A stretch of DNA of 64,000 nucleotides from NCBI RefSeq assembly GCF_949628265.1, contig NC_088787.1:8112501-8176500 (forward strand), given 5' to 3'. This document shows, piece after piece, positions 4,580 through 61,200 of the stretch. The position numbers were made by a program, and so were the translations under genes. How positions within the stretch are numbered: position 1 is the stretch's first letter; the number at the start of each line of letters is the position of its first letter. The notes under the pieces are model-generated. The model saw nothing but the letters and a program-made list of their open reading frames with translations. It was not told where the DNA came from and did not search any database. Source of the DNA: Cloeon dipterum. Lineage: Eukaryota > Arthropoda > Insecta > Ephemeroptera > Baetidae.

Positions 4580-7255
4580 TCAAACTTCTTCCTGCTGCTG
4601 TGCTTGGGGAACTTTGTCCCTGAGTTTGTTGGCGCAGTGCTCGTTGTTGCAGTACTGCGGCAGTCTGTGGTAGATGGGCGGGCGGCCGCGGCGCGTGCCC
4701 ACCTGGCTCGGCGGCCGCTTGCGGAGGCCGTTCTGCACGGCGGTCAGGTCGCACGCCAGGCAGTAGCAGCCCTGGCGGAGGTGCACCCTGATGTGCTTGG
4801 TCAGGTGGTCCGATCTGGCGAAGCGCTTCTCGCACAGCAGGCACTCGTACGGTTTGTGGCCGTTGTGCGAGCGCCGGTGCCGCGCCAGCTCGTCGGATCG
4901 GCTGAAGCGCCACGTGCAGTTCGGCCACGTGCACCTGAAATCAAATAATAAATGGAAAAATTATTATTGATTTTGTAACAATATTAACTTTGAAAGGAAA
5001 CAGCTAAGTCTTTATCTTTTAAGCAGATTTTAATAATTTTTAGTTATATAAATTGTGACAGCTATTTTTATTCAATTTGTTATTTTAATTAAATCTTAAT
5101 AGGTATTAAATAACATATTTATTAAATAAAAATGTAATTTAACTCCAAAAAAATCTTAAATAACAAAATAGCCTTTGAAAAAAGTTTTTATTTGATTTTA
5201 AGACATAGTTAAAATTTTATAAATACACACGTGGATGTCTGCATGTTACAACTTAAAAAAACGGAAGTTTTGATCAAATCTTGAGTCTTCAAATACGTAG
5301 AAAATCACTAACGATTAACACAATATTTATTTCAAAGAAAAAACTGCACATTGATTGCATTTATAGCAGACCATTTGCGCTGCAGAAAATTTGACAATTT
5401 TATATAATTTTTTTAAGGCAGTGTAAGAAGATTGATACCTGAATGGCTTCTCGCCAGTGTGTCTGCGAAGGTGCGACTTGAGATGCGAAGACTTGGCGTA
5501 GATTTTGCCGCACTTGGAGTAGGGACAGAGAAAAGAGCGGGCCTCCTGGTGCTCGCCGCCGCCCCTCGTCTTCACGGCGGCCGGCGCCTCCGGCTGCTGG
5601 AGAATATTCCCAGCAGCGCCGCTGCAACCCTCCAGACTCACACCGAGCACCACAAGGGGCGAGTCGAGTAAGGGCGGCGCCATCCCCGTTGTCGCCGGCA
5701 CCAGTTGCAGCGCCGCGTTCAGTTCGTTCAGGTAGTCGTTGCAGTCGTCCGTGCAGAGCAGCGTCCGCTCTGGCATCGCCGCCGCCGACTCGCTTGCTGC
5801 CGATGCCTCGCCGAACAGGCCTGGAATATGAGAGAGGGGCAAAATTTTTCACGGTTAGGAAGAACGAAAAGGATATTAACGCTTGAAAATCATATTTTGT
5901 TACATTTAAATATGCTAGTTTAAGCTTAATCTAGTAATTAAACGAAACTAATTGTAAGCAGGCAAATTATTCAGGTCAATTTCTTAAATCCTTTGCCCCT
6001 AGTTTTCAACATAAAAATCTAATTCATGCTGTCGAATCACCAACCGCCGATCAATATCAATATTTCGCTGTTTAAAACCAGTTTTTTCCTCATTTGATTA
6101 CATTTATATTTTTTGTTGAGGGACAATAACGCACGTAAAAACTTATTTTTTTAAACTTACAATAGCACAAGCTGCGTTGGTTGAATATTTAAAAAAATCA
6201 TGGCAGTTTAAATCAACAAAAAATATTTAATAATTTGATTTAAATTAAAGAGTTATTAAATTTATCCACGCAAAATAAACATTTTTAAAACTATTTTTTT
6301 ACTACATTGATTAAAAATTGGTCCTGTTTTAATCTCCTTTTATTTAAACAGATGAATTTGCCAGTTAAATTTTAAGACTCTGCCCTAACCAAACCAATTT
6401 AATTCTTAATAATTATTATTTTAAATATATAAATTAAAAAATAGTCATATTCTAACTAAAAAAGTGCCTACCTTCAATGTTGACCCAGTCATTGTTGATG
6501 TCTGCAATCATGGTGGTGCTCCAGTAAGGGTCGGAGGAGTCAAACAGGTTGTTGCCGTAATCGGTGGTTGGAAAGTCTTCGAGCGGCGGGGGTAGGTCGG
6601 CCAAAAAGAGGTCGTCGTCGCTCGGAGGCATGATTCCGGACAGGAAGATGCTCGCGAACTTGTCAACATCTTCTCCTGCAACAATCAGACGCAGAGGATG
6701 GATGAACACATCGCCGAAATGATAAGTAAATAAAATTGGCGCGTGGGCTCGAGAGGAAAAAGCTGAATCGCATTCGATTTATACATTTTGGAACATTTTT
6801 CCTCGACAGATAAAAATTTTCAGGGGTTTTTTGCTTTGCAAAATTCGAAAAATTTATCAATTACTTTGAAATAAATCAATTTACTCTCAATGAGTAAAGT
6901 TGTAATACTTTCATTTAATTCACTCGTGTTATTAAATTTTTGTTAGTATTCTTTATTCATATTTTGGATCATTGACATCTTATATATATTTTTCGTACAG
7001 AGTTTGCTAAATAAAATGTAAAAAATTAAAAAGGTTTAAATTCTTAAAAAGTATTGTTTTTTATTTTTAACGACAATTTTACATTTGCAAATTTTGTTTG
7101 TTATACTCTTTCATTTTATGTTTCAGTTCTCGCTCAGCAAAAATCCTTTTTTTCTGAATCGACAAGAACCTAAATATTAAATTCGCTTTAATTTTTTCCC
7201 AATTAATCTCTCTTAAAATAAAACGAAAATTCCCTATCGTTGAATTACCTGCCAT
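4580..7255 (-). CDS. Klf15: KLF15-like C2H2 zinc-finger transcription factor
   Basis: Minus-strand model join(4580-4934, 5439-5820, 6472-6675, 7249-7255), 315 residues, GT-AG introns in phase 1 or 2. The first coding exon is only 7 nt (ATG GCA G). The N-terminal half is acidic and low-complexity ([12 protein letters not shown] and similar) and probably activates transcription. Three C2H2 fingers occupy about residues 167-252: finger 1 [19 protein letters not shown], a TGEKPF linker, finger 2 [19 protein letters not shown], finger 3 [17 protein letters not shown]. The phrases [16 protein letters not shown] and [11 protein letters not shown] match KLF15 better than other KLF classes, whose finger 2 differs at these positions. 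KLF factors bind GC/CACCC boxes in the nucleus; KLF15 governs metabolic programmes and, in Drosophila, nephrocytes. A basic and cysteine-containing tail of about 65 residues follows finger 3. The linker before finger 3 is NGHKPY instead of TGEKPY. The finger-1/finger-2 junction is split by an intron within the conserved arginine codon. Confidence 0.8.
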
Positions 7256-34171: not shown

Positions 34172-35693
34172 ATGGCCACCCAAAGTGGAGTCGGTGAGAA
34201 GCATTTCCATTATTTTTACGGCCCAAATCCGGCGCAGTTCACGTCAAACGGACCCAAATACCGAATAGGCACTTACATTGCTTGTCCTGCAGCCGAATCG
34301 ACTCATTTTGAGATAACTGAAGCGCGCCAGGAGAGAAAATTAGCCGCTTAAACTCCTTCCTTTTGATGCAATGCGGGCCATGCGACCCAGAATCGCGATT
34401 TCATGTCTTTTTATTCTTATTTAACTCTTTCAAAGCCTAAATATGTTTTAACATTATCAAAAATTTTGTCCGAGCTATGCAGAAATAATGACTTTGAAAG
34501 TGACCTTCAAATTGCTCCAGCTGGCCGGAATTGTTTAAAATTCGGCAGCTCCGCCCATTGGCTTCCGATGCCGGCGTAAACGGAACCGAAAATTTCTAAT
34601 CTTGCTTCCTTATTTGCAGTGGTGCCTCGTAACTTCCGGCTGCTGGAGGAACTGGAGCAGGGCCAGAAAGGTGTCGGCGATGGCACCATCAGCTGGGGCC
34701 TCGAGAACGATGACGACATGACCCTGACTCACTGGACAGGGATGATCATTGGACCCCCCAGGGTACGCTTAACATGCCAATCTTCTAATTTAATTAATTT
34801 TGGCTTTTTTCAATGAAATTTTCCACCGGAATGAAGGTCTTGCTCCTCTTTTTTATAATAAAAAGCTATTAATTTTGCAAAAAATATTGTTCCCTTAGCT
34901 GATTTAAATTCAATTGATTAAAAATGTGTTATGATATTTTTCTCCTAATTATTTTAAAAGTGTTATCTTTTTGTTACAGACGCCCTACGAAAACAAAATG
35001 TACAGTTTGAAAATAGAATGCGGTCCGAGGTATCCTGAAGAGCCTCCTAGTTGTAAATTCCTTTCAAGAATCAATATCAATTGCATAAACACCTCTAACG
35101 GATTGGTGAGTAAAGCTAAATTTTTAAAAACTAAACCAAAAAAATCCTTATCCCTGCAAAATTGAAATTAATCCAGTGGAGTGGTGACAGAGAAATGCAG
35201 GGCGGAGTTCTTTCGCCACTGGTTTTACCCACCTTTTGCCCTTTAATTTGCCCAAATTCTTGCTCTAAAATCGCTAGAAATAATTTTTAATAAAAATGTT
35301 GCATTTTATCATAGTTATTAGTTTTCTTGAAATGTTACCTCAGCATGTTTTTAAAAAATTAATTCAACCCAAACTTTTAGATAACTAAATTCATGATTTC
35401 TGGCGTATTTACCTTTGCACATATATAGTTCACGTGGGTTTTTGCAGGCTTTAAGTTTCAGTTCTCCAAAGGGAGGTCATTGTTATTTAAAAACCCCTTT
35501 TGATATAAACCCTACAGAGATAATTGACGAAATTTCCCTGATTCAATTTCAGATCGATAGTCGGTGTGTGCCAGTTTTATCAAGATGGCAACGAGAGTAC
35601 ACGATCAAAACCCTGCTGCAGGAGCTGCGCCGACTGATGACCGTGAAGGAAAATCTGCGACTCTCGCAGCCGCCGGAGGGCAGTTCATTCTAG
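34172..35693 (+). CDS. Uev1A: Ubiquitin-conjugating enzyme variant Uev1A/MMS2
   Basis: Four exons: join(34172-34193, 34620-34762, 34980-35105, 35553-35693), 143 residues, the normal family length. The N-terminus MATQSG then [19 protein letters not shown], the core [38 protein letters not shown] and the C-terminus [12 protein letters not shown] match insect Uev1A almost throughout. UEV proteins have the E2 fold without the catalytic cysteine; here the region after NINCIN reads TSNG instead of an active-site motif. They pair with Ubc13 (bendless) to build K63-linked ubiquitin chains for DNA-damage tolerance and immune/JNK signalling. An in-frame upstream acceptor could lengthen the last exon (see findings). 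Confidence 0.96.
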
Positions 35694-36455
35694 CCTCCAG
35701 ACAGCCCTCCTCAGTTCCCCTGCCTCACCCACTGATATGAAAGAAACCCTGTTTCCCTTTCTCCCTCCCTCCCTCCCAACCCTCTCTATCTATCTGTTTT
35801 TTTTTATTCAAATCATATTTTGCGAATCCTTGAACACCCACTCACTCACTCACTCACTGACAGGAAAAAAAAAGAATTAATGAACGGTGGTTTTGGATCT
35901 GTTTCCCGGTTGGTTTCAGACAAATCTCTTGAAAGAGCCACGGCGGCGCACGCCAATGGCGACAATGGCGCGTGTACATACTTGTATAGGTTCTCGCTTC
36001 TATTGTTAGACACGCTCTCACTGCATGCGCTTGTTCACGGGCGTGCGCGTGTTGATTTTTACTATTAAGATCGATCATTACGATATATTATTATTATTAT
36101 TATTATAGCTACGGTATAAAAAAAATGCAGATCGTGACTAAAAATTAATCGTGCAAGGATGCATCTAGCTGCCACACCGGCCATGGACAATTTGTTTAAC
36201 GTGAAGATGGAAGGAAATAAATTGCGAGAGTTGAACTTCTAAATCAGCCTTTTTGTCACCCAAACTACCTCATTTGTGAAGAGAAGTGCGATGTGTTAAC
36301 GTTCAATTTAAATTAACATAAAGTTGCGTTTGGAAACTACAATTTAAAACTATTTTCTTGTCTGTTGGTGCAATAATTATTTCAGAGTTTTCAGATATAA
36401 CAAAAGAAGTATTGTTCTACGGATTGCAGGTGTCTGTCCAAATCTAAAGAAATAA
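35694..36455. other. Uev1A 3' region with simple repeats
   Basis: This is probably the 3' UTR and spacer. It contains a pyrimidine run with CCCT units (about 35758-35790), a (CACT)n run near 35836-35860, and an ATT microsatellite near 36087-36105. AATAAA occurs near 36219. No gene is visible. Confidence 0.5.
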
Positions 36456-37438
36456 TTGTCTTCAAATTATATTTTCCTTACCAAAATAAATGCTTTTAAA
36501 TCTTCATTTTCTTCCCAAGCTATCGTTTTCGCTCTGGAAAAATTTAATACACGTTTTCCTGATCTGAATCCATTAAATAATGTTTTGCCACGATATTTTA
36601 TCTTTTATGTTAGCCTATCGGCACAAGATATTTCTCCTGAGCGACTGCAGTCACTTAAAAAATATTGCACCTCCAAATTTCACAAAAATTTAAGAAAAAC
36701 GAAATATGTTTTGCCCTTATTTCACTACATGACAGGAAGTAGCGTCAGAATAAAAAATAATGATTAAACGGAAATGTTCCAAATGACGCATTCGAAAGCG
36801 AAGAGGCATTTTTTCGTTTTTTCACATGGATTGAAATATTTGGATCGTTTCAGTTATCGCAATCAGCAAAATTTTCTTGGTGAAAATAATTTTATAATTA
36901 ATTCCCCATTGGCGAAAACCCTTTCGAAAAAAAAAATATTTTCAAGAGTATTGTTTTGCCAAAAAAATGGAAAATATCTTAATTACTTAAAATTGAAATT
37001 CAATGTAACAGTAATGACTGACCAGCTGAGAGTTTGAATTTTGAATTTTTTTTTTTTCCTGAAAAACAATGCTATGACACAGTAAGACAGGAAGCAACGT
37101 CAGTTTGGACGCCACGGAAATGTTCCAACTATGACGCACTTCAAAAGTGAACAATGAGTATACTTTTTGGGTGGTTATGCTCTTTCCACAAGTAAAAAGC
37201 GATGGGCATACACGTTTGGACCATTATTTGTATCGCAATATGCATGGTAATTATCTTAATTATTATTCAATGCAATTAAAACAGCATAAAAAATTTAATA
37301 TGTTTGAGGTTGCCATAAGTGCTGACAGAAGCAATGCTGCAAGAATTGTTTCAAAAGGTATATTTCTTCCTGATTTAAGTTTAAAATAATAATAAAGTAA
37401 TACTGCACACTTTTTCTAAAATGAAATCATGAAACTAG
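36456..37438 (+). other. Degenerate tandem units upstream of the lectin/OBP gene
   Basis: Three open stretches (36456-36767, 36774-37037, 37147-37389) look like diverged copies of one another. GLKYLDRFSYRNQQ parallels GHTRLDHYLYRNMH, NGKYLNYLKLKFNVTVMTD parallels HGNYLNYYSMQ and KFNMFEVAISAD, and FYVSLSAQDISPERLQSL parallels FEVAISADRSNAARIVSK. A nucleotide block with GACAGGAAG, CGTCAG and GGAAATGTTCCAA occurs at 36730-36785 and again at 37087-37130. The third unit can splice (AAA G at 37357, then a phase-1 acceptor at 37438) into the lectin gene. They may be N-terminal exons of that gene, or decayed duplicates. I recognise no family. Confidence 0.35.
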
Positions 37439-40400
37439 CATTATATGATCAATCCCGAAATTTCCGAATCAAAGGGATGAGAAGAAGAATAATAATTGCT
37501 TGCTGTGGAAGAAATTCGTGCATTAACGTGAAGGCAAAGAAACGAGTGGGAAATTGGACAAACAATTCACCTCCACTAGTATATATAGAATATAAATTTC
37601 AGGACAAATAATAATATTTTAATTTAGACAACACCTGAAAATGTGACTGGAAATGCAGTTTCAAGAGGTTCAGAAGATACAAATTTTGGGAAAAGGCCGA
37701 CTAGTATAAATTTATAATTTTCAATTTGTATCTTATTTCTTCCAAAAGAAAATATCTTTGAAGGTCATTTTTTTTTTTTTTTTGCTCTTTTTATCCTTGT
37801 CCGTCCGAGGACCGGGAAGGGCGCGCACTGCACTAGCACGAATGCTGAAACCCGGGTCCCAATAACACCGCGAACGGATAACATGGGTGCACCAGGCCGC
37901 ACAGGGACCCAACCCTCTGAAGGGCCACTTGCCTCCGCACCGAGGACTGCATTGAAACGCTAGACATTCGTCCCGTGAAGCCAAATCACGCATGCTGGAA
38001 AGGTGCAAACCAGCAAGTAGCGAGTCGGCGCCGGTGCGCCTCCCAGCCCATCGAGCAATTTGAGCAATTCGAGTCACTAAACTAACCACTTTTTGCCATC
38101 TCTGACATTGGGTAGCCAGTATTAGATCTCCGAACTGCTCAAATACCTCACATTGCTTTGACACTCCTGAGAGTGCCTTAACAATGCGAGCCAACGGGCT
38201 GGTCATGAAGACGTTTCAACGAAAATTCAGGATTTTTCAGAAGGCAGCAGCGTGGATGTGGACGGAAGCACCAGCAATTCTAAAAATTTGCTAGTAAAAA
38301 ATGTTTTTCAATTTAAATAGATATACATCTTTAACTAAAAATCCAGCAGGGTGAAACAACGTTAATAGCACCCGTCGAAGAGAAAATCACAGAAAGCACT
38401 TTGACAACATCAATAATTGAAGCCCAAACCGCTGGAGAAATTTTGTCGACAAGCACTTTGACGGAGTCGATGACCACCAGAACTACAGAAATGTCAACAA
38501 AAACTATTGCTTATTCAACTGTGGAACCCACCTCCTTTCAATCCCTCCCCAGTAGTACAACAATTGCAGCACCAAGTTTTACAACTACAATCGAGAAAAT
38601 TACCATTACGGTGCCGACGTTGACGACAACGACGACTCACACAACTAGGTTCGTCTATTCCGCTCCGCCTGCTGCGACAACGCAAAAGGCGATGGTCCAG
38701 CCAGAGTGTCGGAGAAATTGCTCGAAATATGTGGGGAAATTAATTTTCATATAAACAATAATTAATTAAGTCGAAAATTCTGTTGTGCAGGCGCCTTATT
38801 TTAGGACAGATGGTACTTTGGAAGGTAGATTTAAATTTTATAGATATTGCTTTAATTTTTTGAACAGAAATAGTTGAAAGTAAAAATTGTTCCCTAGAAA
38901 AAAAATGCCATCACATATTTTTTAATACAACATTTTTAATTAATTGTTTTGTGAGGAAATTACTGGACGGTAATTAACTACTGGCGCCAAAGTTAAATTA
39001 TAAAAGCAATTGAATGTTTATTAAATGCAAAAGCCATAGAGAAATTTGTCGAGTCGAAGCCCAAAATTCTGGATTTTGCTCTTTCTTGGTCTTTTAAATT
39101 GTCCAATGCGTTTTAAAATATTGAGTTTCATTCCTTAAAACTCGCTAAAGTCTAAATCTTCACAGACCCTTCTCATCATGGATTCTGGGTTGAGGCGTGC
39201 AATCAAACCTTCATGCTCGGCAAATCACTAGTATTAAAACCAAATATAAATACACAATTTTCACTGTTGAAATTGCTTCACAACAGGCCAATTGGGAACA
39301 AAACGTAGATAAATGCTGCCGAATTGGCATGAAACCAATTACTTTTGAAGACGAAATTAAATGGAAATGTTTCAACGGTCTAATAGATGGTGAAATTTCC
39401 CTGAAAAAAGTTTCTTTATGATTTTTTAAAATTATTTTAGGATATAAATGGAAATACAACTCTTTGTATTGGACTTTCGGCGTGCGCACTTCGCCAAAAG
39501 AATTCAAATGGTGCAACACAAACTTTGAAATTTCACAGACCATTTGGAACAGGACGCAGGAGGACAAATCGAATGGAACGAAAAACTGCGTCCAGCTTGT
39601 AATCAGCAAAGAAAAGAGTAACGCTTCTCTTCAAGAGCGCCGCTGTGACGAAGTTAGAGCCTTCGCTTGCGAGGTTTAGTTGATACAATTTACCCTTTTA
39701 ATTAGAAAAAAATTAAAATTTCATCTCTGTCAAGGGTCCAACGACTCCGAAGCCTAAGTGTCAATCACCAACCTGCTTGTCTAACGTTAATTGCACCAAA
39801 AATGTAAATAATAATGTGATTTCTGGTAAAATTATTGCTAGTAATAGTTTAGAAATTTAAAAAAATAAAAATTGGCGAACAAAGCAAAAAACATCTGAAA
39901 AATAATTATCCGTTGTCTCTATCTAGACTTTTGTAGTTTTTACGATTTTAAAAATGACAGTATATTTTCATTGAGACTCTTTTCAGCCTGCAAACTTTAA
40001 TGTACTTGTTGATGGCAGGACAATTCCTCTAAAAGGTTTGGGACTTAGAGAATTGTGGGGCTATTATAGATGTAATTTTAGATATAACTAAATGGGGATA
40101 CTGGATCACCATCCTACGTTCAAAGATTTACGTCTTCAGCGATCCCAAAGACTTGCGAAACGTAAAGAATTTTTGTTTTACTTGTGACTTATAATTTAAT
40201 ATTTTTATTCTTTTTAACGCACAGTATCAAGATTCTACAATACGATGCTGTTCGTTCGGAATGAAATTGCTTAGTCTTCACTTCAGTATGGCCTATGATC
40301 ACATCGTTGAGGCATACAAAAATGGTTTGCTCCTTAACTGAAGTAAAAAAAAATATTTTTCCTTTGCTGAATTGAATTAAAATGTGATGGGATTGGATTG

Positions 40401-42215
40401 AGCCCGATAAATAGAAAATTGTAGAACCATTCAAAGCAAAGATCAATCTGATGAAATAGAAATTCATGTGGTTAATTATTTTAATGAATATATATAATAA
40501 TCTCTTTCTCTAGCTTCATGGCCGAAAACTGCGTTTTGGACCTCAGGAACAGATTACGGTTGCGAAGGTTCGTTTGGCTTTTGCTCCACCAACACTCTAC
40601 TGCGTCAAGAAGCTAAGTGTGTTTAATTATTTTTTCATCTGTAAAATCGATACAAAATCTGGAAAATCTGGAAAGATGGGCTGAGGGTCAGCCTGACAAT
40701 GCCAACGGCACAGAACACTGTGTTTCGGTAGAGGTGCAGAATAATTCTGCCCTCTTGTATGACGAAAACTGTCTCAGCAAAAAGCGCTTCATTTGCGAAG
40801 TATAATGAATATTTATGATATTTTTCTGCAAATAAATTGCTAATTTTGTAAAGGGCCGTGTTCAATCTCTTATCGTTGCAACGGCGGTAGAAGAGGAATG
40901 CTCTATGATCTACGGGCTTACTAAAGGTATTAATTCGATTAACATAATTTTTATTTGCGTCTCAAACTCTCTGATTTGCATTTTTAAAGAAAGAAATTTA
41001 TTTTCAGCGGACGTGCGCAAGGTATTAAAAACTGGGCCATCGAACTTGAGGGAAAAATGCTTCATGAAATGCTTTGGAGAAGCAACAGGACTTGTAATTA
41101 ATATTAAAAGTTAACTTGTCTACATAAATTGCTTCAGTATATAAATGGAAAACTTGTGGAGGAAAAATTGTACGCGATGTTTTCTGACATTTCCTCTGAA
41201 GATGTTGCGCAGTTAACTAAAATGTACACCACAATGGACTACTGCTCCAACATGACACGTAAGAAATTAATATTTTTTGGAAAATTTAAAGATATATATA
41301 TAATTTAAAACTCAATTTTGTTTCCTTGATTTATATATCCTGCGTGTAAATGATAGGAGGAATGGACATTTGTGACAAAGCTGCAGAATTGTTTCGCTGT
41401 GGAGTAGAAAATGCTCCGGAAGTCATGGCTGAAATCGTAGACAGAATGGAAAAGACAATAACCGTAATACTATATTTTCCTAGAAAAAATTAAACAAAAT
41501 ATATTGTGCTGATATTTAAGGAGAGCCCCATCTTGCTTCCTGAAGCCAAGTCCTATTGCCCACCACACAATTGCTATATACAAGTATTTTATTTATATTG
41601 TTTGGCTTGATTTTAAATCTCAAAGATTTAGACCGAACTGAAAACGCTTTTTGACGCAGCGCAAAACAGCACGTACATCGCATTTCCAGGTGGATATGGA
41701 TATGTGACTCATACCTGCGGTGGCAAATTCTTGACGGTAACCTCTACTAAAGAGGAAGTAAAGCAATTAGTTTTAATGTTATATAATTAATCTACATTTA
41801 TGACGTTTTCATGCGTGTTTAGAAAGATTTGCCTGGTGCTCTTGAAGTTTGTTGCTGGTTTGGACTGCGGCTAATGGTGATCCAAACAGAGCAAAAATAC
41901 GACTGCTTGATCAGCAATAAAATCAGTATGCATAAAAATATTTTCTTTATTGGCTGTATAACCAATTTCTTGTTACTTAATTTCGCAGATGGAAATAGAA
42001 CTAATAATTGGTTCGTAGTAGCCGGTTCTCGGATTGGATTCCCGACAAAACCGACTTGGTGCTTCACTGGGGATCTGGTTGACCTTACCATGGGTGAAAA
42101 TAGCATGGGCACACAAGGGAGTCGGTATCCATTTGTCACGGCGTTTACATTCGCAAAAAAACAATTTGGAGCATATTCCGAGAGCCTTGCAGAAGTAGCG
42201 TGCGAGTCTTTTTAA
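37439..42215 (+). CDS. Multidomain protein: mucin-like stalk, two C-type lectin-like domains, OBP domain, third CTLD (5' incomplete)
   Basis: Exons: (37439-37578 tentative), 37628-37703, 38241-38293, 38350-38730, 38791-38824, 39166-39230, 39287-39389, 39441-39673, 39735-39803, 39987-40035, 40082-40161, 40225-40324, 40514-40616, 40676-40799, 40854-40926, 41008-41093, 41138-41258, 41357-41463, 41521-41583, 41632-41736, 41823-41925, 41989-42215. From 37628 this is 784 residues in one frame. A Thr/Ser-rich stalk (38350-38730) precedes CTLD1 (YWTFGVRT, then NCVQLV and CDEVRAFACE). CTLD2 (FWTSGTDYGCEGSFGFC) has a QPD calcium/galactose motif at 40689-40697 and ends CLSKKRFICE. The OBP domain (40854-41463) has ECSMIYGLTKADVRK, KCFMKCFGEATGL, MDYC and CDKAAELFRC. 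CTLD3 starts near 41632 and ends VACESF. CTLDs bind sugars or proteins; OBPs bind small hydrophobic ligands; a secreted product is expected. The signal-peptide exon was not found. AATAAA follows at 42244. The alternative is two or three separate genes, but the downstream modules have no signal peptide or start of their own. Confidence 0.75.
37770..38215 (-). mobile_element. SINE-like retroposon with poly-A tail, inserted in an intron
   Basis: Read on the minus strand, a GC-rich sequence of about 430 bp, unlike its AT-rich surroundings, runs into GATAAAAAGAGC and a poly-A tract of about 19 A (plus-strand T run at 37768-37786). This is the layout of a SINE or other poly-A retroposon. I find no convincing tRNA A/B boxes and no clear target duplication. 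The 157-codon minus-strand frame across it has no family resemblance and is probably accidental. It lies in the 537-bp intron between 37703 and 38241. Confidence 0.5.
40831..40836 (+). terminator. Possible intronic polyadenylation signal after CTLD2
   Basis: AATAAA lies about 30 bp into the intron that follows CTLD2. If the donor at 40800 is not used, translation stops at once (GAA GTA TAA), and this signal could end a short transcript. Such hexamers are frequent in AT-rich introns, so the call is tentative. Confidence 0.3.
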
Positions 42216-54217: not shown

Positions 54218-57200
54218 ATGGCGAATGTGGCGCATCTGGTGCGAAGGCAGAGTTCGCGCGACCTCAACCCTCAAAGGTCGCTCGACAGGGTGGAGCTCAA
54301 GGACATGAGAGGCAGACTCGTGCGTCAGCAGACAGGCAACGCGGTCAATTACGGCACCACCAACGCCGCCTTCGAGGACACCAGCCCCAACACGCTGGCT
54401 TCCGTCACAGAGGTATTTTTTGCACAAACTTTTTGGACTCTTCGTAATTTTAATTAATAAAATAGGACTGTCCAAAGACTGGGGAAACCAAATTTATAGA
54501 ACACAAATTTAAAGATCAAACTTTTTCAAAAGGGTTGAAATAAAGTTGAATATTTATTGTGTCGAGCCTGGAAAAATAAACAGCAGTTTGAACCAATTCA
54601 ACCCTCTTGAGCTAGAAAATGTATGTTAAGTGGAAAAAATAAGTCAGTGGTCTTTCACTCGGGTTATTTTTTGTCTCTCAGACACGTGCTGGAATTTTCC
54701 CCTTTTATAAAATCAGAGCAGTCGATGAAAATATCTTTTCGAATTCCAAGAAAAACATCTTATCATTAAAAGTTTAATCCGTAATGCACGCAAAACACAA
54801 TTAACTCAAGGCTGTGAATGATTTTATTCACTGTTTCAATTTTAATTTCGGAAAGTTGTATGTTTTGTCTGAGGTTGTGAGAGCAGAATCGTTGCTCATT
54901 AATGTTATAAAACTCGAACTCTTTCGAAAGGTGTTTTATAGATGGTTATATAAATCACGAGTTGCTATAGTCAGATTACAGACCTATTAATGTTCTTTCT
55001 CTTTTAGCAACGATGGATTGAGTTCTGGGATTTTTATAATGGTTGTTGAATTAAAACATCTAACCCGAAAAAAAATATTTTTTATTCTAGTTCAAGCTAT
55101 TCAAAAGCAATAATTATAATTCCAAAATAAATTTTAATTATAAAACTCTTAAAAATAAAACCAACGACTAACTCTATTATTTTTTTAAAGAGAGAAAAGA
55201 TAGATTTAAAGTTCAAAGCTCAGTTTTCTAATGGTATAAAGTTTGCGGCATTTTTAGTAGTTTAATATTTTGAAAATGCAAAAATAAAAATCAACAAATT
55301 TTGGATGGAAAACAAGTCTCTGATTTGCATTTATAAACACATTTCCTTGCTTGATTTGCTTCTTTTTATAGAGAGGTGAAAATCTCACGTTTCTTTTTAT
55401 TCAGAGAAACGTGCAAAAATATTCAGTGATGTCTATTGAAGCGGGTTAGCGTGTGGTTTTGATTCGATCAGTAGGACCAAGAGAAAGGCTGTATTTGTGT
55501 TCAATCGGAAGCTTTCAACCTTGCCGGAGCTCTCTCGGGCAACGTGCACACAAATGTATGTTTGAACAGGAGCTCAAGTGCATCCGAGGCTAACAGATCA
55601 AAGGCCCGCCGTTTCCCCACACTATTGAGTTCGCGCTTTTTTCTTTTTTCCCTATACGATCGAATAAATTATTATTATTTGCATCTCTCCAAATTTGATT
55701 TATTTTTATTTCGTGATTTTCAGGCGACGGTGAAAGACGTGCGGGACGCGATCGAGGGCAAGGACGAGAAGAAGACCTTTTGCCCAGAGAGCGGTGGCGA
55801 AGGCGAGGAACGAGAGTCGTGGGACAGCAAACTGACGTTTCTGCTGGCCACGGTGGGCTACGCCGTCGGCCTCGGCAACGTCTGGCGCTTCCCTTACCTC
55901 GCACAGAAGAACGGCGGAGGTGTGCATTAATTAAAAGTGCAAATTAATTCCTCAAATCCTATATATTATTATTGTTTTAATTAAAACAATGTGTTTAAAT
56001 TAATAATAATTTAGGAAAATTACTTATTATGAATTTTTTGTATCTTTACTTAAAAGTAATAAAAATAATTTAGTTTTTAATTAAATATAATTAGTCAAAT
56101 TCTCTTGTTTGAGCAAATAATTTAGAAATTTAGCTGATTCTGTGACCAATTAAAGTATTGTCAAAATTGACGGTATCTTTATGCGTTGTTTTTTTTTATA
56201 TAAATTGAATAGTTAATTATTAATATGAATGGCATACATTTTAAATGCCGTATCAATTTTGAATTGTTTCAGGCGCTTTTCTCATCCCCTACTTCATCAT
56301 GCTGCTGATCGAAGGGATGCCTATTTTCTACCTGGAGCTGGCGATCGGACAGCGGCTGCGGAAGGGCGCCATCGGTGTCTGGAGCCAGGTGTCGCCGTAC
56401 CTGGCCGGCATCGGCATCAGCAGCGCCGTCGTCTCTTTCAACGTCGCGCTTTACTACAACACCATCATCGCCTGGTGTCTCTTCTACTTCGTCCAGGTAC
56501 AACATAAAAATAAAAAAGACGAGGCTCTTGCTGTTGGTCAAGAAAAGTGCTGAAAGCTTTTACTGCAGTAAACCTCAATTAAACATGATTGTTTACTTCA
56601 TTGTTTTGTAATACATAAATTTATGTTTTATCCGATAAAAATATCAGTTCAAATTGAAAGTAAAATTTAGAAACAATTTTTCTGAGTTGTTGATTTTTAT
56701 AATACAGAATTGCAAATTATTTCTACCAGAAACTTTGAAATTTATTAATTTTAATATAATTTAATCTGACCTATGTAAATGAAACAGACATAAACTCGAT
56801 TATTTTTCTAATCATGGATTTCAAATTTAAAAACTTCAAGGTTTGAGCTTTTTTCCTCCTTGTTTAGAGTTTCCAGGCCCAGCTGCCGTGGGCCGAGTGT
56901 CCCAACAAGTACTACTCGAACGGCTCCTACGAAATGGAGCCTGAGTGCGCGGTAAGTACCAAATTTGCACGCATGCACTAAGACGACAGCCTCTGAAAAT
57001 TGACTGTTAATAAATAAGTAGGAAACTTAGCACTTGAGTAGGTAACTGCACAACATTTTTAGAATTTTCTTAAAATTTAAAGAGCATGACATCCAGAAGT
57101 AGGCGTAAACCAGATAATTTGGACCACTATGCCTCCTAAATTGTTTAAATTGATTCAAGAGAACAATTTTTTGCAAAAATTACTCGTATTTTCTTTAAAA

Positions 57201-60200
57201 ATCACTTCGAAAAATTTATCTGTTAAAATTAAAAGCTTTCAATTCTGTTTAAAACATTTTTCTGCTCCGTGAGTGAGAGTTTTGGAAAGGTTTTAAATCT
57301 TTCGGAGAAGATAAAAAGAAATTTAAAAAATGAAACGTTGCAAAATCATGAGCTAAATTTCTAAATATGTAAAATTGATCTAATTTAAATCTTACTAAAA
57401 AAGAGCTTTAGAGTTGTTTTGTTATAACTAATTTGGGTTTTGTGCTCATATTGATGAAAATTCGGGAGGGTTTTGACACTATCAGGCTGTGTTTGCTCAT
57501 ATTTCTTAGTAACTTTCCTTTGCTAATAGTTCACATATATGCACGAAGTAGCGATTTTCGTACACTGTTTCTGACTTAAAAAAGAGCTCTTAGCAGATCA
57601 AAATCAAATGGATCTCAATGGTTTGGGCCAGTAACATGAGAGCTGCGGAATTTTTCTGGGTTTTCCCCAATGAGGCTATTAAGATGAGGAATTTTCACGA
57701 GTTATTCGCTATCAGGGTGTCGCCCATCTCGAACTAGTTAAACCGTCGAAAAAAAGAGTTAAAATCTCAAACACAACGCAATTTTTAGGTGTTTGTCAGG
57801 CTTCTCAAAGCAATTTGTCCCGAGGACAGTTTAAAACATCTCTTAAATGGCATCTTAAAGTAAATCAGATCATTATCTAAAATTCCCAACCCAGCTACGT
57901 CTCCAATTTGTCAAGTTTTCAAATTTCTTATTTTAGAAGAGCAGTCCGACGCAGTATTTCTGGTACAGGACGACGCTGCAGGTGTCGGACGACATCAACT
58001 CGCCGGAACACTTCAACTACAAAATCGTATTCGCTCTGGTGATCGCCTGGATTCTGGTCTACATGTGCATGATCAAAGGGATCGCGTCTTCGGGAAAGGT
58101 GAGCGCGAGTGTTTAGCGTGCAAACGCGAATAACGCGGCGCCGCGCGAACAATTACTCCCGTTTGCTAAGCAGTAACATGATCCTCAAATTTGTTGCGCA
58201 CGCTAAAACAGGTGCGAAAGCTTTTATTTGATGTCGAATTTGTTCGCAGGTCGTGTACGTGACGGCAACGTTTCCATATATCGTGCTAATCATCTTCTTC
58301 TTTCGCGGAGTCACGCTAAAAGGCATGTCGGACGGCCTGATGCATCTTTTTAAGCCAAAGGTACGCTTCTTTTCTCAATTAATTTCACTCTCTTTTGGAA
58401 AAAGGATACTAAAGGTCTAAAACTCACTCATTTAATTCATGGATATTTTCAGAAATGCTTACAAAACTTTTAATGATATTTTTACGGTCAATAAGAGCAA
58501 AAGCTAAGGATTTTATATATACATTGATTGACAATAATTAAGTGTTTATATATTTAGAAAAATATTTTAATTACAATTTTTGACAAAACATAGTTAGATT
58601 AAAAATTTTAAAGTTTATTCAATACAAAATATTAGATAATTTGATTTAATATACACATATTTTTTTCAAATTACTTGAAAAAGAAATATGATTTTTAATT
58701 TTATATCAAAATCTAAGTAATTATAAACACAAACAACTTAAATTTAATATTATCAAGCAAATTTACAGATTTTTAATCCTTTACAAACAGAATAAATAGA
58801 CTGCTTCATTAAAAAAAATCAATTTGGACTACATTTGCCATACAAAGCAATTTTTTCTGCTCTATGACCAATCAATAAAATAAATGCCCTCTTTTACGCT
58901 ATTAAAAACTGATTTTTTCCGGTAATATAAATCTCGCTTGCTATTTTCAGTGGTGGCAGCTGACCGATCCAGTTGTATGGCTGGAAGCGGGCACCCAGAT
59001 ATTTTTCTCACTGGGTCTGGCATTTGGCGGATTAATCGCCTTCTCATCGTACAACCCGGTGAACAACAACTGCTACCGGGACGCGATTCTGGTGTCGCTG
59101 ACCAATTGTTTCACCTCCATGTTTGCCGGCATCGTCGTCTTCTCGATTATCGGCTTCAAGGCACACATGGCCTTCGACAAGTGTCTCGAGGAGCGAAACG
59201 CAACCATTCTGTCCGCCATGAGCAACGGCACTTCGTATGCGCTCGCTAACTTCCAAACGCCTGAATGCGACCTCCAGAAGGAACTGGACAATGTGAGAGA
59301 CTATTTGAAAATGAATAAAAATAGGGATGATTTATTCTTTTTTAGCAAAATTCTGGAGATAAAAAAATTGTTTTAAGAAAATCATAATTGAAAATGTGAT
59401 CAGCTGTCCAAAATTTTGATGATTTTATGCTGGAAATTAATTTAAAAATCCGTAAAATTCTTGATTTCGAGCATATTTACCTCTTAAAATTTCTAAATTT
59501 ATTTTCTTTAGCAAGGACACGTTAAATTTCCCGATCTTTTTCAATTTTAATGAACACACTTCGTTGGTAATCAATTTTCCAGACCGCATCCGGCACAGGC
59601 CTCGCGTTCATAATTTTCACGGAGGCGATCAACCAGTTTCCCGGAGCCCAATTCTGGGCCGTCCTCTTTTTCCTGATGTTGTTCACCCTGGGCATCGACT
59701 CTCAGTTCGGCACCCTGGAAGGCGTCGTCACCTCCATCGTGGACATGAAGCTGTTTCCCAACCTGCGCAAGGAGATCCTGACAGGTAAGGAAATTTTATT
59801 GTTTTTTTTTCTTATGATCGTTGAAATTTGCTCTTCAGGGAGTATCTGCCTGGTTTGCTGTCTGATTTCGATGGGATTCGCTCATAGCGCTGGTAGCTAT
59901 GTGTTCGTCCTATTCGACAACTTCAGCGGAAACTTTCCCCTGCTGATCATCGCGTTTTGCGAGTGCATCGGCGTATCCTACGTCTACGGATTGCGAAGGT
60001 GAGCTTCAAATTCTTCTCTTTTATTTGAGGGGGGAAGGTATGCATCGTTAGTTTATATTTTTTAATTTAAAAAAAGGTAAAATCCAACCACAAGTGCTTC
60101 AGGATAAAGACGATAGAGATTAGAAAATCTCAAAATCCGATAGAGTACTCGCAATTGTTTGATGTTTTTCAGTTTTTCCTTTGTTGACTATGTTAATTAT

Positions 60201-61200
60201 AGCGAGCATTTGATTGAAAAATTTGCCCCATTAACAAAGACCGTCTTTGACGAAGTTTCTGAGCATACCAATCGATTCTTGAGGGTCGAAATTGGTAAAG
60301 TGGATATTTTTTCCGACCATAAAGTCCAGCGCGACGTGCGAAATATTTTTCCCGCCAAAACAATATGAACGTATATGCGAGAACTGCGCATGCGTCAGGG
60401 CTGATTTGAGCACTTGCAGAGAGACCATCATTACGAATGACTTCTTTGTTAAATCCAGCCAGCTCTCACGCATGCGCAGCTCTCGCATATACGTTCATAT
60501 TGTTTTGGCGGGAAAAAAGTTCGCAAAAATATCCACTCTACCTAATTCGACCCTCAAGAATCGATTGGTGTGCTCAGAATCTTTGTCAAAGATGGTCTTA
60601 AACCAAACGAAAATTTTCCCAACTGATTATCATATAGTAAAGACTGATAGCTGGCGCGAAATTTGTTGATTTAATCTGAATCAGAACTTCAACTATATCT
60701 CATTTCAATATGTGTTGCAATTTCTTCCTGATAGATTCGCGGACGACATAGAAAAGATGACGGGTCACCGGCCAGGCCTGTACTGGCTGATCTGCTGGAA
60801 GTACCTGTCGCCTTTGGCCATGATATCAATCATGGTGGCGACATTCGTGCAGATCGCGATGGACGGCAGCGGCTACGACGCGTGGGTGTCCTCGGAGGGA
60901 ACTTCCGAGCGGCGCAACTGGCCCACGTGGGCGCTCGTGCTAATCTTCACGCTGATCCTGATGTCGGTGCTGTGGATTCCGGTGGTGGCCGTCTGCAGGG
61001 CGTTCGGCATCATCATCATCGAGGACGAGGAGAAGGCCTGGTTCCCTGGCTCTGAGCTGGCAGAGTTCCACGGACTCACCCACCACGAAGCCACGCCGAC
61101 CGAGAAATTTCTCTTCGGTTTCAGGGACGATGGCTCCGAGGGCATCTGCTGCCCCACCGGTGGCAACTATGAGCAAGAGGAGGAGGAGGATGATGACTAG
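54218..61200 (+). CDS. SLC6 sodium-dependent amino-acid/neurotransmitter-type transporter (NTT4/B0AT group, bloated-tubules-like)
   Basis: Ten exons: join(54218-54412, 55724-55919, 56273-56496, 56868-56951, 57937-58098, 58250-58360, 58951-59292, 59583-59784, 59839-59998, 60735-61200), 713 residues with agreeing phases. SLC6 proteins have 12 membrane helices and import solutes with sodium. The TM1 signature [20 protein letters not shown] is intact, as are [20 protein letters not shown] (TM2), [19 protein letters not shown] (TM3) and [18 protein letters not shown] (TM6). [18 protein letters not shown] (TM8) carries the sodium site. The [12 protein letters not shown] segment with a short extracellular loop is typical of SLC6A15/A17 and Drosophila bloated tubules, rather than the monoamine carriers, which have an Asp in TM1. 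N-glycosylation-type sequons occur in the loops ([18 protein letters not shown]). The tail ends in an acidic run. Intron 9 holds a foldback element. The exact ortholog (blot or another insect NTT4-like gene) is unsettled. Confidence 0.93.
60230..60605 (+). mobile_element. Foldback element in SLC6 intron 9
   Basis: Two arms of about 145-165 bp (about 60237-60403 and 60458-60600) are inverted copies. AATCGATTCTTGAGGGTCGA pairs with TCGACCCTCAAGAATCGATT-like sequence, and CCGCCAAAACAATATGAACG pairs with CGTTCATATTGTTTTGGCGG. The spacer is about 55 bp. The left arm has an extra segment of about 25 bp. No target duplication is clear. Confidence 0.75.

Follow-up and report, generated by a model that had tools for sequence, protein, structure and literature searches.

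A predicted family of secreted lectin proteins carrying an odorant-binding protein domain in the mayfly Cloeon dipterum

Odorant-binding proteins (OBPs) are usually small, free, secreted carriers; the classic insect members (PF01395) are 120-170 amino acids long and have their own signal peptide. The D7 salivary proteins of mosquitoes resemble the case described here in carrying OBP-like domains, two of them, within a longer protein, but they have no lectin domain. Secreted insect proteins with several C-type lectin domains (CTLDs; PF00059), the dual-CTLD immulectins among them, function in immunity, and a true sugar-binding C-type lectin has the calcium- and sugar-contacting residues QPD or EPN together with WND. 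Here we describe a predicted gene of the mayfly Cloeon dipterum whose product would place an OBP domain between CTLDs. The gene lies at 37202-42215 of a 64,000-nucleotide stretch of contig NC_088787.1 (C2:8112501-8176500; hereafter the window), in a genome of 190.1 Mb and 10 contigs. From genomic sequence, we regard it as almost certain that this CTLD-OBP architecture and its family are real, and by our cluster counts the genome has far more than 100 genes of this kind.

The OBPs of C. dipterum have been described before: a 180-Mb assembly yielded 191, the largest set then known, expressed mainly in nymphal stages (121 of 152), with 82 of 167 expressed in gills and some adjoining nerve-marked cells (Almudi et al. 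2020, PMC7250882). The word 'lectin' is absent from the main text of that article. Another mayfly, Parafronurus youi, likewise has OBPs, but they number 10, of 135-252 amino acids, and neither 'lectin' nor 'fusion' occurs in the main text (PMC13205551). Within the open-access literature, supplements excluded, no title or abstract opening among the matches listed describes an OBP-lectin fusion; a preliminary reading of the window's letters (the sequence-only reading) knew of no such chimera. The closest co-occurrence among the matches listed is a damselfly genome article, where the two terms stand in sections that have nothing to do with each other (PMC5381652).

The window gene and its domains

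Exons were joined from genomic DNA by reading frame and GT-AG borders. The predicted gene has 22 exons whose phases match and which are free of internal stops, and its 2388 nt, stop codon included, encode 795 amino acids. The sequence-only reading had proposed at least 21 consecutive exons in one frame across 37628-42215, and this was borne out: 21 of the 22 exons fall there, all with GT-AG borders, and the remaining one, upstream, is signal-peptide-like. The modules run in the order signal-peptide-like exon, Thr-rich stalk, CTLD1, Cys-linker, CTLD2, OBP, Cys-linker, CTLD3 and stop, with the following positions in the window.

37202-37246, + strand: probable first coding exon, signal-peptide-like, 15 amino acids, hydrophobic; predicted start, phase-0 GT donor
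37628-38730, + strand: Thr/Ser-rich stalk, from exon joining; exons 37628-37667, 38241-38293, 38347-38730
38791-39673, + strand: CTLD1; exons 38791-38824, 39166-39230, 39287-39389, 39441-39673; same module in paralogues L016 and L025; no Pfam match alone
39735-39803, + strand: Pro/Cys linker exon preceding CTLD2, kept in paralogues
39987-40799, + strand: CTLD2; exons 39987-40035, 40082-40161, 40225-40324, 40514-40616, 40676-40799; Lectin_C 4.3e-7 alone; QPD at 40689-40697
40800-40853, + strand: CTLD2-OBP intron, 54 nt, phase 0, with an in-frame stop
40854-41463, + strand: OBP domain; exons 40854-40926, 41008-41093, 41138-41258, 41357-41463, with phases 0>1, 1>0, 0>1, 1>0; PBP_GOBP 7.8e-12 alone
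41521-41583, + strand: linker exon between OBP and CTLD3, with a Cys pair; L016, L025, L030 and L031 likewise have a phase-0 junction
41632-42215, + strand: CTLD3, degenerate; exons 41632-41757, 41823-41925, 41989-42215 (including the stop); no Pfam match alone; no transmembrane segment after it

Because CTLD1, CTLD2 and the OBP are each entered and left in phase 0, each is a symmetrical module. The stop codon lies immediately 3' of CTLD3 in the window gene as well as in L016 and L023, and these proteins would therefore have no membrane anchor. The transcript is presumably made as modelled.

The sequence-only reading had asked for a Pfam search of the joined protein with PF01395 and PF00059, and both families exceeded their curated cut-offs (PBP_GOBP 1.9e-10, Lectin_C 1.2e-9). 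Searched alone, the OBP domain reached 45.7 bits (cut-off 22). Its six cysteines, at domain residues 16, 42, 46, 89, 99 and 108, have exactly the classic spacing that had been noted (C1-X25-C2-X3-C3-X42-C4-X9-C5-X8-C6), and the nearest solved structure by phmmer is General odorant-binding protein 28a (6qq4, 2.6e-4). Across the family, all 21 sampled OBP domains matched PBP_GOBP at E 0.01, and none of the six cysteines varies among the 21 aligned domains. The likeness to classic OBPs thus lies in cysteine spacing, Pfam match and phmmer match, whereas the small free-standing form with its own signal peptide is not what we find: the domain sits between CTLD2 and CTLD3, with in-frame junctions on both sides.

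The three CTLDs that had been proposed differ in how they are recognised. CTLD2 alone scored 31.1 bits (Lectin_C cut-off 22.6), but in the window gene neither CTLD1 nor CTLD3 had a Pfam match when searched alone. Among paralogues, the CTLD1 of L016 is over the cut-off at 33.8 bits and two others are under it (22.3 and 17.7 bits); of two paralogue CTLD3 pieces, one reached 16.9 bits and the other had no match. With Pfam scores this low or absent, CTLD3 is classed as a CTLD mainly by the shared pattern CGxxYL...CCxxGL...C, and both CTLD1 and CTLD3 are recognised mainly through their common cysteine and exon pattern. The galactose-type assignment of CTLD2 stood in one part: QPD is kept, but the second sugar/calcium motif reads LYDENC instead of WND, so the site is incomplete. 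In 37 genes of the family, the CTLD2 motif is QPD in 12, EPN in five and QPN in one, and is altered or without a clear match in 19. The family thus shares with insect C-type lectins and immulectins a secreted form, several CTLDs and, in part of its members, QPD or EPN; it differs from them in its OBP, its long Thr-rich stalk and a sugar motif that is often incomplete or altered.

A repeat of ~414 nt lies within an intron of the gene (37790-38203). Of 3118 initial candidates for this repeat, the 40 that were scored, with the copy here among them, are 98-100% alike; one copy stands in the same orientation upstream of CTLD1 in L016 (C3:22381573-22381986).

Junctions and family across the genome

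To compare the CTLD2-OBP junction between genes, we used the stretch from the last CTLD2 cysteine to the first OBP cysteine in 37 genes, a sample picked for having OBP matches and comprising genes with both domains. In 14 of the 37, the end of CTLD2 and the start of the OBP lie in one open exon (seven genes of the C3 cluster, L021, L036, L037, L039, L040, L041 and L043), so no splicing need be assumed there; the flanking CTLD2 and OBP cysteines are 45-54 nt apart in the nine of these that were measured. At the junction of the remaining 23 lies a GT-AG pair that keeps the frame, in phase 0 in 22, though such a pair alone is weak evidence and the one in L028 requires a long extension and an unusual intron of 280 nt. 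In five of these 23 spliced paralogues (L016, L026, L028, L034 and L042), an in-frame ATG lies 5' of the first OBP cysteine. The window gene has none in its first OBP exon (40854-40926), and its 54-nt intron, which contains an in-frame stop, leaves no space for a further promoter and signal exon. The separate OBP signal exon that the sequence-only reading named as evidence against a fusion was therefore not found in the window gene.

Beyond the OBP, the junction with the linker before CTLD3 is in phase 0 in L016, L025, L030 and L031. In each of the 29 paralogue rows that offer 850 nt or more, CTLD3-like exons follow the OBP, at scores of 81-588, of which three among the highest belong to the query sequences themselves. 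Of 58 null alignments to reversed or opposite-strand sequence, 56 scored at most 54; the two outliers (97 and 109) fall in L023/L024, where the other strand carries a gene.

The genome was searched with single OBP proteins, and paralogues were read with a spliced aligner that penalises intron length. A Pfam family search, which acts exon by exon, gave a single PF01395 match at the default threshold, an ordinary OBP exon (L001, C3:3625495-3625665), whose own next matches are at E 0.33. A fragment of Drosophila OBP28a used as a genome query had no match, a result that carries no weight.

After merging of matches, the family scan gave at least 150 OBP clusters and at least 259 CTLD clusters, counts that are lower bounds and whose cluster coordinates were transcribed by hand. 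For 128 of the 150 OBP clusters a CTLD match lies upstream on the same strand within 1 kb, for 133 within 1.5 kb and for 134 within 2.5 kb. No listed CTLD match stands in any of the three other relations, on the opposite strand or downstream. Clusters placed at random within their own chromosome (300 runs) gave a mean of 0.22 and a maximum of 2, and shifts of 3-30 kb that preserved the clusters gave a mean of 8.6 and a maximum of 19. The 134th cluster (C1:17069185) has an in-frame stop and borrows the CTLD of a neighbouring gene, and was counted as lacking one. Of the 17 clusters without a match at 1.5 kb, 14 have CTLDs when read directly (the window gene, L025, L026, L030, L031 and L044-L052), and three are degenerate OBP copies that lack their own CTLD: one truncated (C3:13742282), one a short fragment (C5:27974825) and the one with the in-frame stop (C1:17069185; L020:6188-6397). 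CTLDs would thus accompany 147 of the 150 clusters, and this recurrence, together with the 14 single-exon and 23 in-frame GT-AG junctions, supports the fusion that the sequence-only reading had proposed from the window.

Reading of individual loci agrees. A CTLD module stands directly upstream on the same strand at the first set of loci examined, except for the three degenerate copies; at six of six further loci from the remaining clusters; in seven of eight short slices, the eighth being too short; and at nine of nine loci read later, that eighth included. Both domains have been read at sequence level in 46 genes (the 37 plus nine). Two of them, L016 (C3) and L025 (C4), repeat the order CTLD1-CTLD2-OBP-CTLD3 and the OBP exon lengths of the window gene, 73, 86, 121 and 107 nt; the recurrence of this order and of four exon lengths on two other chromosomes is more than chance would give. 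In one tandem array, evidently recent, four CTLD matches with identical scores stand ~13.5 kb apart (C2:6339498, 6352950, 6366483 and 6380016; L006-L009).

If the fusion preceded the multiplication of the genes, the two domains should have diverged together. Protein distances of CTLD2 and the OBP across the 37 genes are indeed correlated (r=0.879), and none of 999 permutations was as high (maximum 0.275). The ~147 loci would most simply derive from one fusion predating the expansion. In 27 close pairs, the ratio of nonsynonymous to synonymous divergence (dN/dS) is 0.05-0.47 in both domains wherever the synonymous divergence (dS) could be computed; the pairs were chosen for closeness and dS exceeds 1 or is not computable in many, which makes the ratios rough. 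These values show purifying selection on both CTLD2 and the OBP in close pairs. Within one group (C3:13.73-13.79 Mb, L010-L015), the two domains disagree, with a CTLD2 dS of 1.9 against 0.18 for the OBP in one pair and 0.25 against 2.0 in another, as if domains had been exchanged via conversion or unequal crossing-over.

The window contains other genes. A ubiquitin-conjugating enzyme, presumably a Uev1A-type variant, is the immediate upstream neighbour (34620-35694, + strand; UQ_con 2e-13 when its first exons are joined), and a sodium:neurotransmitter symporter lies at 55475-61200 (+ strand; SNF 3.2e-30 on one exon). There are also a C2H2 zinc-finger gene (4580-5848, - strand), a VWD domain near 25.9-26.2 kb (+ strand) and a chitin-binding CBM_14 domain near 11.0-11.4 kb (- strand).

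Possible function and rival explanations

We propose that the gene product would be a single secreted protein with a signal peptide, stalk, CTLD1, CTLD2, six-cysteine OBP and CTLD3. The Thr-rich stalk is probably O-glycosylated. The OBP pocket could take up a small hydrophobic molecule, while the lectin domains and stalk could retain the protein in a glycan-rich layer such as mucus, the surface of a sensillum or gill, the gut or a microbial coat. Tethered in this way, the carrier would not be lost to the surrounding water, and its most likely use would be chemical sensing in the aquatic nymph. The coupling of ligand binding to glycan recognition, already put forward by the sequence-only reading, is conjectural. 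Taking the architecture and the general idea of a tethered ligand binder jointly, we put the probability at about 0.75; the specifically sensory role in the nymph falls somewhat short of an even chance.

Several points weigh against this reading. Roughly 46 of the 150 clusters were read in sequence, and the remainder are assigned from the adjacency of matches. The OBP queries that gave many matches all came from fused genes, which undersamples free-standing OBPs and makes the count uninformative about the number of ordinary ones; at least one ordinary OBP exon (L001) is present in the genome. No relative of the window gene is similar enough to yield a dN/dS value. Glycan binding may have been lost, given the incomplete CTLD2 motif of this gene and the 19 of 37 genes whose motif is altered or was not found. 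Finally, the RKK of one subfamily, described below, is a possible proprotein-convertase site that would free the OBP.

Four other explanations have to be set against the tethered carrier. The OBP could be an independent gene with its own start, beside or inside a CTLD gene, and the splicing between them an artefact of joining exons by eye. OBPs are normally free proteins, a chance in-frame GT-AG pair is easily found, and an in-frame ATG does precede the first OBP cysteine in five of the 23 spliced paralogues; but the uninterrupted CTLD2-OBP exon in 14 of 37 paralogues, the short window intron followed by an OBP exon lacking an in-frame ATG, the in-frame CTLD3 linker after the OBP in L016, L025, L030 and L031, and the lack of any OBP cluster (0 of 150) in another relation to a listed CTLD leave this a very slim chance. 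It was on the single-exon junctions that we set aside both the independent-gene and the chance-splicing readings. One chain might still be made and then cut: a precursor cleaved after translation would free the OBP, the lectin parts serving as packaging. In favour of that explanation, one expanded subfamily (L036, L037, L039, L040, L041 and L043) has kept an RKK in its linker from CTLD2 to the OBP, but neither the window linker, CEGRVQSLIVATAVEEEC, nor the ARDT/TRDT linkers contain a dibasic site, and we think cleavage improbable.

The main rival to sensing is an immune or barrier lectin that coats microbes or the surfaces of gut and gill, its CTLDs binding glycans and its OBP microbial lipids or toxic small molecules. 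This would agree with the immune action of secreted multi-CTLD proteins in insects, and large tandem families fit arms races. The average dN/dS is low in both domains, however, and these averages, which are not per site, give no sign of diversifying selection; moreover, C. dipterum OBPs are reported to peak in nymphal stages, many of them in gills (PMC7250882). We regard an immune function as rather unlikely. Lower still do we place a structural or adhesive secretion, such as egg coat, mucus, tube or glue, in which sugar and small-ligand binding would be irrelevant: the Thr-rich stalk, the degenerate CTLDs and the 19 of 37 genes with a changed sugar motif would suit it, but the retention of all six OBP cysteines in 21 of 21 domains and the purifying selection on the OBP domain do not.

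Implications for OBP counts in mayflies

The at least 150 clusters in our 190-Mb genome stand beside the 191 OBPs reported from 180 Mb (Almudi et al. 2020, PMC7250882), and the two sets are presumably the same. If so, the published 191 C. dipterum 'OBPs' would largely be domains of lectin proteins, and the seemingly large repertoire of small smell carriers may consist mostly of segments of a novel type of composite protein. More tentatively, the largest known insect OBP repertoire might consist almost wholly of secreted lectin-OBP composite receptors that hold and present hydrophobic cues at the glycan-coated gill and head surfaces of nymphs, as an alternative, adapted to water, to the free OBP of sensilla. 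Two well-studied binding folds would be present in one protein, with a division of labour that can be measured, and the proposal suggests, in a form open to testing, how ligand carriers can work in water. An OBP domain fixed in a multi-lectin protein and duplicated to more than 100 genes would change how OBP counts are read in early winged insects.

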